Shown here: positions 21,383 to 61,596 of the stretch, one piece after another
Numbering within the stretch: position 1 is the first letter of the stretch
Layout: each line of letters opens with the position of its first letter
Assembly (NCBI GenBank): GCA_020052615.1
Contig: JAGVOT010000054.1
Span: 1 to 64,000, forward strand
Direction: 5' to 3'
DNA length: 64,000 bases
DNA from: Nitrospirota bacterium
GTDB lineage: Bacteria > Nitrospirota > UBA9217
Notes under the pieces: model-generated
Database searches by the model: none
Told to the model about the DNA's origin: nothing
The model's input: only the letters and a program-made list of their open reading frames with translations
Position numbers and translations under genes: made by a program

Positions 21383-22435
21383 ATGGCCTTGTTCTGGAAA
21401 AAGAAGACATTGACCAGCATGTCCCGCACCTGCGGCTGAGCGGCGAAGATCGGTCCGGCGGACCTGTCGGACGTGCTCTCTTCGATCTGTCCCGTTCATA
21501 ACCCGAACCTGCTGGTAGGGTTCGAAACGAGCGACGACGCGGCCGTGTACCGCGTCTCGCCCGACGTGGCGATCATCAGTACCGTGGACTTCATCACGCC
21601 GCCGGTGGACGATCCTGTCTGGTTCGGCAGGATCGCGGCCGCGAACGCCCTGTCGGACGTCTATGCCATGGGGGGGAAGCCGCTGGTGGCCCTCAACCTG
21701 GTCATGTACCCGTCGAAAAAGCTCGATATGGGGATCCTGAAGGGGATCCTGACCGGCGGCTTCGAGAAGGTCCAGGAGGCGGGGGCAGCGCTGGCAGGCG
21801 GGCATTCGGTCGATGATCTGGAGCCGAAGTACGGCCTTGCCGTGACCGGCAGCGTCCATCCCGACAAGGTGCTCACCAACGCCAATGCAAAGCCCGGCGA
21901 CGCCCTGATACTCACCAAACCGCTCGGAACAGGCGTGCTGTTCAACGCCTGCCGTTCGAAGAAGCTCCCGCTTCGCGACCTCGAAGCCATCCTTCCCAAG
22001 ATCGCCATGTTGAACAAGGCCGCCATGGAGTCCGCCCTCGCCTATGATGTGCATTCCTGCACGGACATCACCGGATTCGGCATCCTGGGCCATACCTTTG
22101 AGATGGCCAAAGGGAGCAAGGTCAGGATCGAACTCACCTATGAGCTGCTGCCTTTCCATCCCCACGCCCTCGACATGTACCGCAGGGGCGAGACGACGGG
22201 GAGCAATAAAGCGAACCGCGAGATTGTTGAAGGTTTCTGGAAGAAAAAGCGGCAGATGAGCCGCGACGAGGAAGAACTGCTCTTGGATCCACAGACCTCA
22301 GGCGGGCTCTTGTACTCGCTCCCTGCTTCGCAGGCCGAGGAACTGGTGAAGAAGCTCAGGCTTGCCGGCGTGGAGGATGCTCGTATTGTCGGCGAGGTTT
22401 TTTCCGCAGATAGACCTGCCGTGGTGATCCGCTAA
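21383..22435 (+). CDS. selD: Selenide, water dikinase (SelD), itself a selenoprotein (in-frame TGA)
   Basis: Makes selenophosphate from selenide and ATP for Sec-tRNA and selenouridine synthesis. Starting at ATG 21383 behind AAGGAAGG, the frame meets TGA at 21437-21439 and then runs openly to 22435, giving 350 residues with Sec19. The context RTCG-Sec-AAKIGPADL matches the catalytic Cys/Sec of SelD exactly. Downstream landmarks include DDAAVY, DFITPPVDDPVWFGRIAAAN, ALAGGHSVDD and DPQTSGGLL. A start after the TGA, such as 21473, would delete the catalytic residue. A hairpin follows the TGA. Confidence 0.93.
21448..21468 (+). promoter_or_regulatory. Candidate bacterial SECIS hairpin in selD
   Basis: GATCGGTCC, loop GGC, GGACCTGTC: a stem with one mismatch and one G-U pair, beginning 9 nt after the TGA. 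Its position fits the SelB-binding SECIS of bacterial selenoprotein mRNAs. Confidence 0.55.
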
Positions 22436-57718: not shown

Positions 57719-59227
57719 TCAGACGCGCGCCGCCCGGAGCCTCTTCTCGTGCCGCCGGAAGACCTGGCGGAAGTGGAAGCCGTAGATCGAGAGGGTGATG
57801 GCGAGCGGGAAGAGCCGCGGTTTCCGCACGAGGGACCAGAAGAAGAGCTTCCAGTACTCGTACCGCTCCCTGCCGATGATGCCGAGCCGCACAACGGACT
57901 GGACCATGGCCCGGAGATACATGATCCGGAAGCGGGCCTGCATTTTCTTCGGCGGCTGGTACTCCTGCAGGAACTTCCTTACCCGGGCGTAGTAGTTCTT
58001 GGGGGAATAGATCGTGCTGAGGATCCTCCGGTAGCCGTTGACCAGCGTTTCGCTGCTCATCTTCGGGATGAAGTTGAGCGTGAAGTCCGTGTTGTCGCCC
58101 GTCGCGGTCGTGATGATGCGGCCTTCCCGCTCAAGGCGGCGGTAGAGCCTGGTGCCGGTCGGGGCGTTCAGCAGCCCCACCATGGCGGTCACGATCCCGC
58201 TTTCCTGGATGAAGGCGATAAGCCGCTCGAAGATCGTTGCCGGGTCCTGGTCGAATCCCACGATGAAGCCCGCCTGGACCTCGAGACCGGCGCGCTGGAC
58301 CTTCCTGACGTCCGCGATCAGATCGCGGTTCCGGTTCTGGAACTTGCTGCACTCGGAGAGGCTCTCCTCGTTCGGCGACTCGATGCCCACGAACACCTGG
58401 TCGAAACCTGCCCGGACCATGAGGCCCATCAGCTCCTCGTCATCGGCCAGGTTGATCGACACCTCCGTAAAGAGCGTGAAGGGCCGCCCGTGCTGCTCCA
58501 TCCAGGCAATGATGGCGGGCAGCACTTCCTTCTTGAGCTTTCCCTTGTTCCCGATGAAATTGTCGTCGACGATGAAGACGCTGCTGCGCCAGCCCCGCCG
58601 GTAGAGCTCGTCGAGCTCGCCCACGATCTGTGCCGCGTCCTTGGTCCGCGGCGACCGGCCGTAGAGCACCGTGATGTCGCAAAATTCGCAGTCGAAGGGG
58701 CAGCCGCGGGAATACTGGATGTTCATCGAGGCGTAGTGCTTCATGTGCAGGAGGTCGAAGCGCGGCAGGGGCGTCCGCGTGACGTCCGCCCAGCGGTCGG
58801 ACGTATAGACCCGCTGCGGCCGGCCAAGGGCGAGGTCCGCGAGGAAGAGCGGCAGGGTGATCTCGGCTTCGTTCAGCACGAGGTGGTCTACCGCCGGGTA
58901 GTCCCCATGATGGGCGGTGAAGAGCGGTCCTCCGGCGACCACCGGGACGCCCGATTGCTGGCACCGTTCGATGACCGCGTCGGCCGAGGCCTTCTGGATG
59001 GACATGGCCGAGATCAGCACATAGTCCGCCCACCGGAGGTCCGCGTCGGTCAGCTTCCCGGTGTTCAGGTCGACGAGGCGCTGCTTCCATTCCGGAGGGA
59101 GCATGGCGGCCACGGTCAGGAGGCCCAGGGGCGGCAGGCTCGCTTTCTTGGCGATGAACTTCAGGGCATAGGTGAAGCTCCAGAAGGTGACGGGATACTG
59201 CGGATAGACGAGCAGGATGTTCATCAT
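57719..59227 (-). CDS. B12-binding radical SAM protein with DUF4070 C-terminus
   Basis: 502-residue enzyme. An N-terminal cobalamin-binding domain (LLVYPQYPVTFWSFTYAL) is followed by a radical SAM core with the 4Fe-4S Cys triad at 176, 180 and 183 (RGCPFDCEFCDI) and a C-terminal DUF4070 segment ending in YGFHFRQVFRRH. Relatives include HpnP, the hopanoid C-2 methylase, and many uncharacterised methylases, so a lipid or cofactor methylation role is possible. ATG 59227 lies just after AAGGAGCTC. A TATAAT-like -10 is at 59349-59344 on the minus strand. Confidence 0.88.
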   Translation of the reverse strand: MMNILLVYPQYPVTFWSFTYALKFIAKKASLPPLGLLTVAAMLPPEWKQRLVDLNTGKLTDADLRWADYVLISAMSIQKASADAVIERCQQSGVPVVAGGPLFTAHHGDYPAVDHLVLNEAEITLPLFLADLALGRPQRVYTSDRWADVTRTPLPRFDLLHMKHYASMNIQYSRGCPFDCEFCDITVLYGRSPRTKDAAQIVGELDELYRRGWRSSVFIVDDNFIGNKGKLKKEVLPAIIAWMEQHGRPFTLFTEVSINLADDEELMGLMVRAGFDQVFVGIESPNEESLSECSKFQNRNRDLIADVRKVQRAGLEVQAGFIVGFDQDPATIFERLIAFIQESGIVTAMVGLLNAPTGTRLYRRLEREGRIITTATGDNTDFTLNFIPKMSSETLVNGYRRILSTIYSPKNYYARVRKFLQEYQPPKKMQARFRIMYLRAMVQSVVRLGIIGRERYEYWKLFFWSLVRKPRLFPLAITLSIYGFHFRQVFRRHEKRLRAARV

Positions 59228-59616
59228 GAGCTCCTTGCGATGCACGGGCGGAGATGATCGCTTATGCTGAGGCCCGGCCGGAAGATTTTACCTGGGGCAG
59301 ACTGTCGAAGCGAAGTGCATGACCGCTGCGGTATTATTGATCTATTATACCAAAAACACAACAACTATTAGTTGCAGAGAATGATCGCGGGAACGGCGGG
59401 CACGTTCCCGGCCCGGGGCAGCCAAGGGCAGGATGCCGCAGGGGTTGCCATTTTCTCAAGTTTATAGTACGCTTTTTTTCAAGAGGGGGCTGCACCGGCT
59501 TTTTTCCGCAACAGAACGCCACAGCGATCAAAGCGCATCGCACCAGAGCAGATGGGGATGTGAGGCCGGTGCCTCCCGCGCCTGCGCCTGAGCGGGCCGG
59601 TGTAACGAGGATCATC
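59228..59616. other. Divergent intergenic region (radical SAM / FAD oxidoreductase)
   Basis: 390 bp. It contains a minus-strand -10 TATAAT (59349-59344), a small palindrome CAACTA-T-TAGTTG near its -35 (about 59361-59373), and a perfect hairpin CGGGAACG-GCGGGCA-CGTTCCCG at 59388-59410 without a T-run. No clear plus-strand promoter was found. Confidence 0.5.
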
Positions 59617-60741
59617 ATGAAAAAACGGTTCGTTATCGTCGGCGGCGGACACGCCCACCTTACGCTGCTCGCCCATCTCGACCGGTGCGTCAGCCGGGGG
59701 CACCGCGTGACCGTGGTGAACAGATCGGCGTATCATTATTACTCCGGCATGGGCCCGGGGCTGCTGGCCGGGACGTATGGCCCCCGGGACGTGAGGTTCC
59801 ACATCAAGCGGATGACCGAGGACCGCGGCGCCCGGTTCATCGAGGATGCCGTTGTGCGCATCGATGCGCGGGACCGGTCGCTGAAGCTCGCCTCAGGGGC
59901 GGTGATCTCCTATGATGTCGTTTCCTTCAACACCGGCAGCGAGGTGCCTGCGCTGATTCGGGGGGCCACGGGGCCGGCGGTCTTTCCGGTGAAGCCCATC
60001 GCAAACCTGATAAGAGCGCAGCATGCCCTCATCGAACTTCTTGCCGGACGGACCGCTGACATCGTCGTGATCGGAGGCGGCCCGGCAGGTCTGGAAATAG
60101 CAGGCAATGTCTGGCGGCTCGCGGCCGATCGGGGGGGCAGGGCGCGGATAACGCTCCTGGCCGGCAGCCGGCTGATGGCCCGTTTTCCCGACCGGGTGAG
60201 GACGCTGGCGCTCCGTTCCCTGCAGCGGCGGGGGGTCGAGGTCGTCGAGGGTGCCCACGCCGCCGCGTTGGATAAGAACAGGGTAATCATGGACGACGGC
60301 ACGGCACGGTCGTTCGACGCGGTCTTCCTGGCACTGGGCGTCGCGCCGTCCACGCTCTTCCGGGATTCAGGACTGCCGACAGGACCAGACGGCGGCCTCC
60401 TCGTCAACCGCTTCCTCCAGTGCACGGCCCATCCCGAGATCTTCGGCGGCGGCGACTGCATCTCCCTCGAGGGCAACGCGCTCGCCAAGGTGGGCGTCTA
60501 CGCGGTGCGCCAGAACCCGGTCCTGATGGGGAACACCTGCGCTGCCCTTGACGGCGGACCCCTGGTCCCCTTCGTGCCGCAGAAGCGCTACCTTTTGATC
60601 TTCAACCTGGGGGACGGCACGGCGATCCTGCACCGGAACGGAGTCACCATGGACGGGCGGTTCGCCTGGCGGCTGAAGGACCGGATCGACCGGGGGTTCA
60701 TGGGGAAATTCCAGCTCTCCGGGGAGCTGGACGAGGAATGA
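59617..60741 (+). CDS. FAD-dependent pyridine nucleotide-disulfide oxidoreductase, SelD-partner type
   Basis: 374-residue flavoprotein. The first Rossmann motif VIVGGGHAHLTLLAHL and the following SAYHYYSGMGPGLLAG strongly resemble the oxidoreductase domain found N-terminally fused to SelD in many bacteria (TIGR03169-like). The second nucleotide motif VIGGGPAGLEIAGN is for NAD(P)H. FAD-site IFGGGDCISL lies near the C-terminus. It may also resemble sulfide:quinone reductases, and a quinone-linked role cannot be excluded. It is encoded 21 bp before a Sec-containing rhodanese fusion, suggesting they act together in selenium or sulfur redox chemistry. Confidence 0.85.
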   Translation: MKKRFVIVGGGHAHLTLLAHLDRCVSRGHRVTVVNRSAYHYYSGMGPGLLAGTYGPRDVRFHIKRMTEDRGARFIEDAVVRIDARDRSLKLASGAVISYDVVSFNTGSEVPALIRGATGPAVFPVKPIANLIRAQHALIELLAGRTADIVVIGGGPAGLEIAGNVWRLAADRGGRARITLLAGSRLMARFPDRVRTLALRSLQRRGVEVVEGAHAAALDKNRVIMDDGTARSFDAVFLALGVAPSTLFRDSGLPTGPDGGLLVNRFLQCTAHPEIFGGGDCISLEGNALAKVGVYAVRQNPVLMGNTCAALDGGPLVPFVPQKRYLLIFNLGDGTAILHRNGVTMDGRFAWRLKDRIDRGFMGKFQLSGELDEE

Positions 60742-60762: not shown

Positions 60763-61596
60763 ATGGGCATTGCCGATTATTTCAAACCTGTTGACACGAT
60801 GACGCCCGGCGAGGTCCGGCAGTTCCTGGACCGGCACAAGCCCGACGACTACAACCTCGTGGACGTGCGCCAGCCGAAGGAGTATGAGCGCGGCCATATT
60901 CCCGGCAGCAGGCTGATCCCCGTCGCCGAGCTGCCCGGCCGTCTCGCCGAACTGGACCCGAAGAAGCCCACGATCGCCTATTGAGCATCGGGTCTGCGCA
61001 GCCGGGCGGCTGCGTCGGTGCTCAGAACCGAAGGGTTCAGCGAGGTGTATAGTATGGAAGGCGGCATGCATGCCTGGCAGGGCCTGACCGCGGCAGGCGC
61101 GCCCGAGGCCGGTATGTCCTTCTTTACCGTGGGCAGCCTGCCGGAGGAACTGATCGCGCTGGCGTGGACGCTCGAAGACGGGTCGCGGAAGTTCTATGCC
61201 TCCCTCGCCGTTACGCTCGCGGACAATGAAGCAGCGAAGCTCTTCACGGAACTGACAACTGCCGAGGAACACCACAAGGCGACCCTGCTCGGCCTGTATC
61301 GCGATGTCGCGGCCGCTGAGCCGGGCACTGATTTTCCCCGGGGCATCATCACGGCCGACGAGGACCGGATGGAAGGCGGCGTGAAGGTGAGCGAGGCCCT
61401 GGAATGGGCGAAGGGCAGGGATGCCTTTGCCCTGCTCGAACTTTCCATGGCCCTTGAGACGGATTCCTACGATCTCTATATCAAGATGGGCCGCAGGGTC
61501 GAAGGAGAAAAGGCGAAAACGGTCTTCGCCCGGCTGGTCGAGGAGGAGAAGGGGCATCTGGGCCGCATGGCCGCGCTCCTGGACAGGGACCTTTGA
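60763..61596 (+). CDS. Selenocysteine-containing rhodanese fused to a ferritin-like domain
   Basis: One 277-residue protein if TGA 60982-60984 is read as Sec74. Residues 1-110 are a rhodanese domain: YNLVDVRQPKEYERGHIPGS, then active loop TIAY-Sec-ASGLRSR, where the catalytic Cys is always found, and VYSMEGGMHAWQG. Residues 120-277 form a rubrerythrin/ferritin-like four-helix bundle with a diiron pattern Glu138, Glu168-x2-His171, Glu232, Glu262-x2-His265. The two halves are in the same frame with no start signal after the TGA, and AAGGAGA precedes ATG 60763. A long hairpin covers the TGA. Sulfur- or selenium-transfer coupled to redox at the diiron site is inferred. Confidence 0.9.
60982..61024 (+). 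promoter_or_regulatory. Extended SECIS-like hairpin including the UGA codon
   Basis: TGAGCATCG pairs with CGGTGCTCA (one G-T pair), followed by an asymmetric internal bulge (GGTCTG against T), then CGCAGCC, loop GGGC, GGCTGCG. It starts at the UGA itself and the apical loop lies about 20 nt downstream, as expected for a bacterial SECIS. Confidence 0.7.

Follow-up and report, generated by a model that had tools for sequence, protein, structure and literature searches.

A candidate selenocysteine rhodanese fused to a ferritin-like diiron-type domain in Nitrospirota, and its association with a SelD-type flavoprotein

Introduction

Selenocysteine (Sec)-containing rhodanese-like proteins are listed in five forms in a 2026 review (PMC13188914), so they are not very rare, which corrects the preliminary description of the locus reported here. 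These proteins share with our fusion protein a rhodanese fold containing Sec, and forms 2 and 4 also share its UxxG Sec motif. None of forms 1–5 is described with a ferritin-like fusion, the comparison with forms 1, 2, and 4 being by description only. The models NF041203 and NF045694 (TsoB) match the fusion far below their cut-offs (28 versus 115 and 22 versus 805 bits, respectively), and no NCBIfam model covers a Sec rhodanese/ferritin-like fusion. Rubrerythrin and ferritin-like proteins (PF02915; 2fzf, 1vjx) resemble the second half of the fusion, with a four-helix domain whose paired helices carry Glu and ExxH ligands. Unlike classical rubrerythrins, the fusion protein has its rhodanese at the N-terminus and stops after the bundle without a rubredoxin-type FeS4 domain, its chain being cysteine-free. 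BpPRF (5ve3) likewise joins a single-domain rhodanese to a non-heme iron enzyme, but its iron domain is mononuclear, of the metallo-β-lactamase type, and lies at the opposite end, and its rhodanese uses Cys rather than Sec.

Two further systems pair related partners. NDH–SelD fusions are known in other bacteria (PMC4561486, PMC2398784), and the NDH-fused SelDs are reported as Cys types (PMC4561486). The flavoprotein encoded upstream of our fusion gene aligns end to end with the corresponding model, TIGR03169, at 272.5 bits, but this score is under the curated cut-off of 310; the flavoprotein is free-standing, whereas the SelD of this genome is separate and of the Sec type. In the CoA-disulfide/persulfide reductase–rhodanese fusions (3icr, 3nt6, 8a56), a rhodanese is likewise paired with an NAD(P)H flavoprotein, but in one chain with redox Cys; here, separate genes encode the two, and a single Cys is conserved in the flavoprotein. 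No report of a Sec rhodanese–rubrerythrin-like fusion, or of its pairing with a free SelD-type flavoprotein, was found in the open-access literature. Sec rhodaneses and NDH–SelD fusions are known; what appears to be new is the fusion, with 14 of 17 Sec proteins cysteine-free, and its association with a SelD-type flavoprotein.

A Sec-form rhodanese that travels with a free-standing relative of the SelD-fused flavoprotein offers a way to study both how toxic selenide is delivered to SelD in bacteria and what the flavoprotein domain on many SelDs does. In the fusion, Sec takes the position of the sole reactive thiol of a chain that also holds a candidate diiron center, and standard gene calling would split the gene.

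Results and Discussion

The window, the whole 64,000-nt stretch of Nitrospirota DNA that was analyzed, contains the following gene and parts:

60763–61596, forward strand: Sec rhodanese/ferritin-like diiron-type fusion gene, 277 aa with Sec74 (translation, Pfam, orthologs)
60982–60984, forward strand: in-frame TGA, read as Sec74, at the rhodanese catalytic Cys codon (shared by 17 distinct orthologs, with TGC/TGT instead in 14 fused homologs)
60805–61080, forward strand: rhodanese domain, residues 15–106 (PF00581, E 1.1e-22; Foldseek to 3tp9, 3iwh, 5ve3)
61147–61578, forward strand: rubrerythrin/ferritin-like domain, residues 129–272 (PF02915, E 6.4e-11; conservation; helices in the model)

Translation with the TGA as Sec affords 277 residues, with Sec74 within AYUASGLRSR, and an AAGGAG ribosome-binding-type site lies directly 5′ of the ATG. 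The TGA is the sole interruption of the frame, which continues for 203 residues to a natural stop at 61594–61596. Mechanical ORF calling gives two ORFs of 73 and 192 aa. The TGA at the catalytic Cys of the rhodanese loop, the open frame beyond it, and the splitting by ordinary gene calling had all been claimed in the preliminary description and are borne out. Seventeen distinct Nitrospirota orthologs carry TGA at the same codon (17/17). Fused homologs without the TGA (n = 14) have Cys at codon 74, encoded by TGC or TGT; these are the continuous Cys homologs that the preliminary description had proposed as support for Sec. Among the 17 Sec and 14 Cys fused sequences, the Sec/Cys switch is confined to this codon. 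The active-site loop of the Sec forms reads U[A/G]SG[V/L/M]RS, and that of the Cys forms is the canonical CRSGNRS. Full-length matches in the contig scan come from Nitrospirota only. The selenoprotein reading of the rhodanese/diiron-type fusion is supported by every sequence test run.

Both domains score well above their Pfam gathering thresholds (PF00581, 80.8 versus 22.2 bits; PF02915, 43.2 versus 22.8 bits). An AlphaFold model built from a 12-row alignment places a helical bundle after a rhodanese fold (mean pLDDT 82.7, pTM 0.76). In Foldseek searches, numerous rhodanese structures match the first domain, BpPRF and CoA-persulfide reductases among them; the P. furiosus ferritin-like protein 2fzf matches the second. 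The complete ferritin-like bundle with ExxH motifs at 168–171 and 262–265 had been recognized correctly at the outset, and both motifs are conserved. Glu138 (31/31 sequences), Glu168 (29/31), His171 (31/31), Glu204 (29/31), Glu232 (29/31), Glu262 (29/31), and His265 (28/31) form a putative diiron-type ligand set and would be expected to bind metal; Glu204, Glu232, and His265 are not strictly invariant across the wider family. Fourteen of the 17 Sec proteins are cysteine-free, and the others share no conserved cysteine. No intramolecular Se–S bridge is therefore possible in those 14, and their sole selenol would need an external thiol, persulfide or chalcogen donor, or the metal center, to close a catalytic cycle.

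The preliminary description did not mention a partner gene directly upstream, which encodes a SelD-type flavoprotein:

59560–60741, forward strand: Pyr_redox_2 flavoprotein related to TIGR03169 (Nterm_to_SelD), ending 21 nt before the fusion gene

The two genes probably form one operon. Because the match to TIGR03169 is full-length though below the cut-off, the flavoprotein is assigned to a related subfamily. Seven Sec loci of the sample have it as the next gene upstream in the same orientation, as does the broken contig L054; it is beside none of the sample's Cys loci. Strong matches (>250 bits) were found in 12 of the 296 Nitrospirota genomes searched, 11 of them among the 15 Sec-form genomes. 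The corresponding contrasts, 11/15 versus 1/281 other genomes (Fisher p 5e-16) and 11/15 versus 0/21 Cys-only fusion genomes (p 2e-6), are uncorrected for relatedness. The flavoprotein gene is adjacent to the fusion gene in seven of these 11 genomes and elsewhere in the genome in four. The one strong match in a genome that lacks the fusion gene is at C77:24549–25634 of G226. Genome G151 carries both fusion copies, Sec and Cys (C1:92686–93510 and C1:838828–839658), and the flavoprotein adjoins the Sec copy. The flavoprotein was also considered as an SQR or disulfide reductase; this assignment was rejected on the absence of a conserved Cys pair, its one conserved Cys lying in GGGDC. A B12-binding radical SAM protein (PF02310, PF04055, PF13282) is encoded at 57719–59245 on the reverse strand and matches several NCBIfam families, none at cut-off.

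We consider it probable that the locus encodes a functional selenoprotein in which a single-domain Sec rhodanese is joined to a four-helix rubrerythrin/ferritin-like diiron domain, with SelB-dependent read-through of the UGA at 60982. The sequences show recoding, the fusion, and the interchange of Sec and Cys, together with candidate diiron ligands and the linkage between the flavoprotein and the Sec form; the reaction itself may involve persulfides, the reduction of peroxide, or the delivery of selenium. The link to peroxide or oxygen reduction suggested in the preliminary description is likewise a hypothesis. In the proposed mechanism, the selenolate would take up a sulfur or selenium atom to give Sec-S(H) or Sec-Se(H) or, alternatively, would react with an oxidant to give a selenenic acid. 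With a cysteine-free chain, turnover of the Sec74 intermediate would fall to an external thiol or the diiron center. Electrons would come from the probably co-transcribed NAD(P)H flavoprotein, either directly or via a carrier. Redox handling of reactive sulfur or selenium species in oxidant-exposed anaerobes appears to be the likeliest function.

The flavoprotein partner, together with the known formation of perselenides by rhodaneses, makes selenium delivery a serious alternative, which we hold tentatively as a minority possibility. Sec74 would carry selenium as a perselenide, or would reduce oxidized selenium together with the flavoprotein, and would pass the selenium on to SelD, with the ferritin-like domain protecting or re-oxidizing it. 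It is conceivable, although doubtful, that the two genes thus constitute a system for controlled selenium reduction and delivery that feeds selenophosphate synthesis via a protein perselenide, in which a selenoprotein would itself serve as the selenium chaperone. The flavoprotein is akin to a domain that other bacteria fuse to SelD (PMC4561486, PMC2398784) and follows the Sec form rather than the Cys form, a lone selenol without a resolving Cys suits transfer, and rhodanese can form a perselenide for which a role in supplying SelD has been proposed (Ogasawara 2001, cited by PMC10298544 and PMC8538045). However, selD is 38 kb away and outside the operon, the flavoprotein falls under the TIGR03169 cut-off, and Cys-form genomes make Sec without it. 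A Sec-dependent supplier of selenium would also be circular, although many SelDs are themselves Sec proteins.

A persulfide dioxygenase-like enzyme, in which the rhodanese would load a persulfide for oxidation with oxygen at the diiron center, seems unlikely. The analogy is to the ETHE1–rhodanese fusion BpPRF, the nearest matched rhodanese with an iron-enzyme partner, which is an iron oxygenase. The iron domains of BpPRF and the fusion protein have unrelated folds, however, the hosts belong mostly to lineages that are presumably anaerobic, and a linked NAD(P)H flavoprotein points to reduction rather than oxygenation.

Returning to the selenoprotein reading, the TGA could in principle be a real stop, leaving either a 73-aa rhodanese fragment and a separate 192-aa ferritin-like gene that begins at GTG 61018, the two ORFs that mechanical calling yields, or a decaying pseudogene. 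This explanation is highly improbable and was rejected. Codons 75–85 (ASGxRSRAAAS), which lie between the TGA and GTG 61018 and would be untranslated in a two-gene arrangement, are among the most conserved positions in the alignment. The TGA is kept at one codon in 17 lineages with no other stop ever there, and the homologs, rather than ending before this position, run on through it, the Cys homologs reading straight across codon 74. Differences among orthologs cluster at third codon positions on either side of the TGA, and pN/pS for L018 versus L049 is 0.24/0.67 before it and 0.28/0.66 after it. Purifying selection at the protein level, as judged from these substitutions, acts both before and after the TGA. 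A sequencing or assembly error that turned TGC or TGT into TGA, a general possibility in any draft assembly and one raised in the preliminary description, is still harder to credit and is refuted by the same TGA at this codon in 17 distinct orthologs from several independent assemblies.

A tree of the Sec and Cys forms requires three Sec/Cys changes. The Cys form L051 (identical in sequence to L062; genome G273) is nested among Sec forms. Its genome, assembled as one contig, has selA and selB and gives no match for tRNA-Sec. Together with the apical stem that L051 keeps (see below), this suggests a recent replacement of Sec by Cys.

The sequence from the TGA onward holds the following element:

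60982–61024, forward strand: SECIS-like hairpin with a conserved apical stem, GCAGC (60998–61002) and GCUGC (61009–61013), and a hexaloop

The large hairpin that the preliminary description had seen to start at the UGA is real and significantly stable (81 nt, −39.6 kcal/mol, z −3.3; 0/200 shuffles equally stable), but only its upper stem is conserved across orthologs; the long base pairing that involves the UGA is peculiar to this sequence. The apical stem, at nt +16–20 and +27–31, is complete in 15/17 Sec genes and retains four of its five pairs in the other two. Arg79 is encoded by CGC in 17/17 Sec genes versus 3/15 Cys genes (p = 2e-6, Fisher, shared ancestry ignored), and Ser80 is AGC in all 17 Sec genes. 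The 15 distinct Cys genes use five codons for Arg79, and the stem is down to 3–4 pairs in all except L051, which still holds all five. Synonymous constraint on the apical stem, as measured by codon usage, is thus found only in Sec genes. Pair covariation is unusable here because the stem hardly varies, and an Rfam scan of the 64-kb window gave nothing at the gathering threshold, an outcome that speaks neither for nor against a bacterial SECIS element. We regard the apical stem as a SECIS-like element and a putative SelB target.

The genome also has the machinery to decode UGA as Sec. Profile searches find selA (612.8 bits) and selB (384.4 bits). Two distinct tRNA-Sec genes, each with a UCA anticodon, exceed the Rfam threshold with 64.1 and 52.9 bits, and selD lies in the window:

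L001:1497–1595, reverse strand: tRNA-Sec, contig C50 (Rfam match above cut-off)
L002:1500–1594, forward strand: tRNA-Sec, contig C130 (Rfam match above cut-off)
21383–22435 of the window, forward strand: selD, unfused, of the Sec type, with its own in-frame TGA (TCGU, within MSRTCGUAAKIG)

The preliminary description had looked to selA, selB, and selC in the same genome, and all are present in addition to selD. Among other Sec-form genomes, G141 (99% complete) has tRNA-Sec with selA and selB undetected, and selA is also undetected in G005, G006, and G216; these absences are probably assembly gaps. Co-occurrence of selA with the Sec form is uninformative, since selA is found in 32 of the 37 genomes with the family, Cys forms included. 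Second, lower-scoring tRNA-Sec copies occur in G141, G283, and G189. Genome G283 also has two selB genes (C36:16343–18187 and C35:116653–118506), one of which adjoins its second tRNA-Sec (C35:118549–118639), an arrangement that suggests a second Sec-decoding set.
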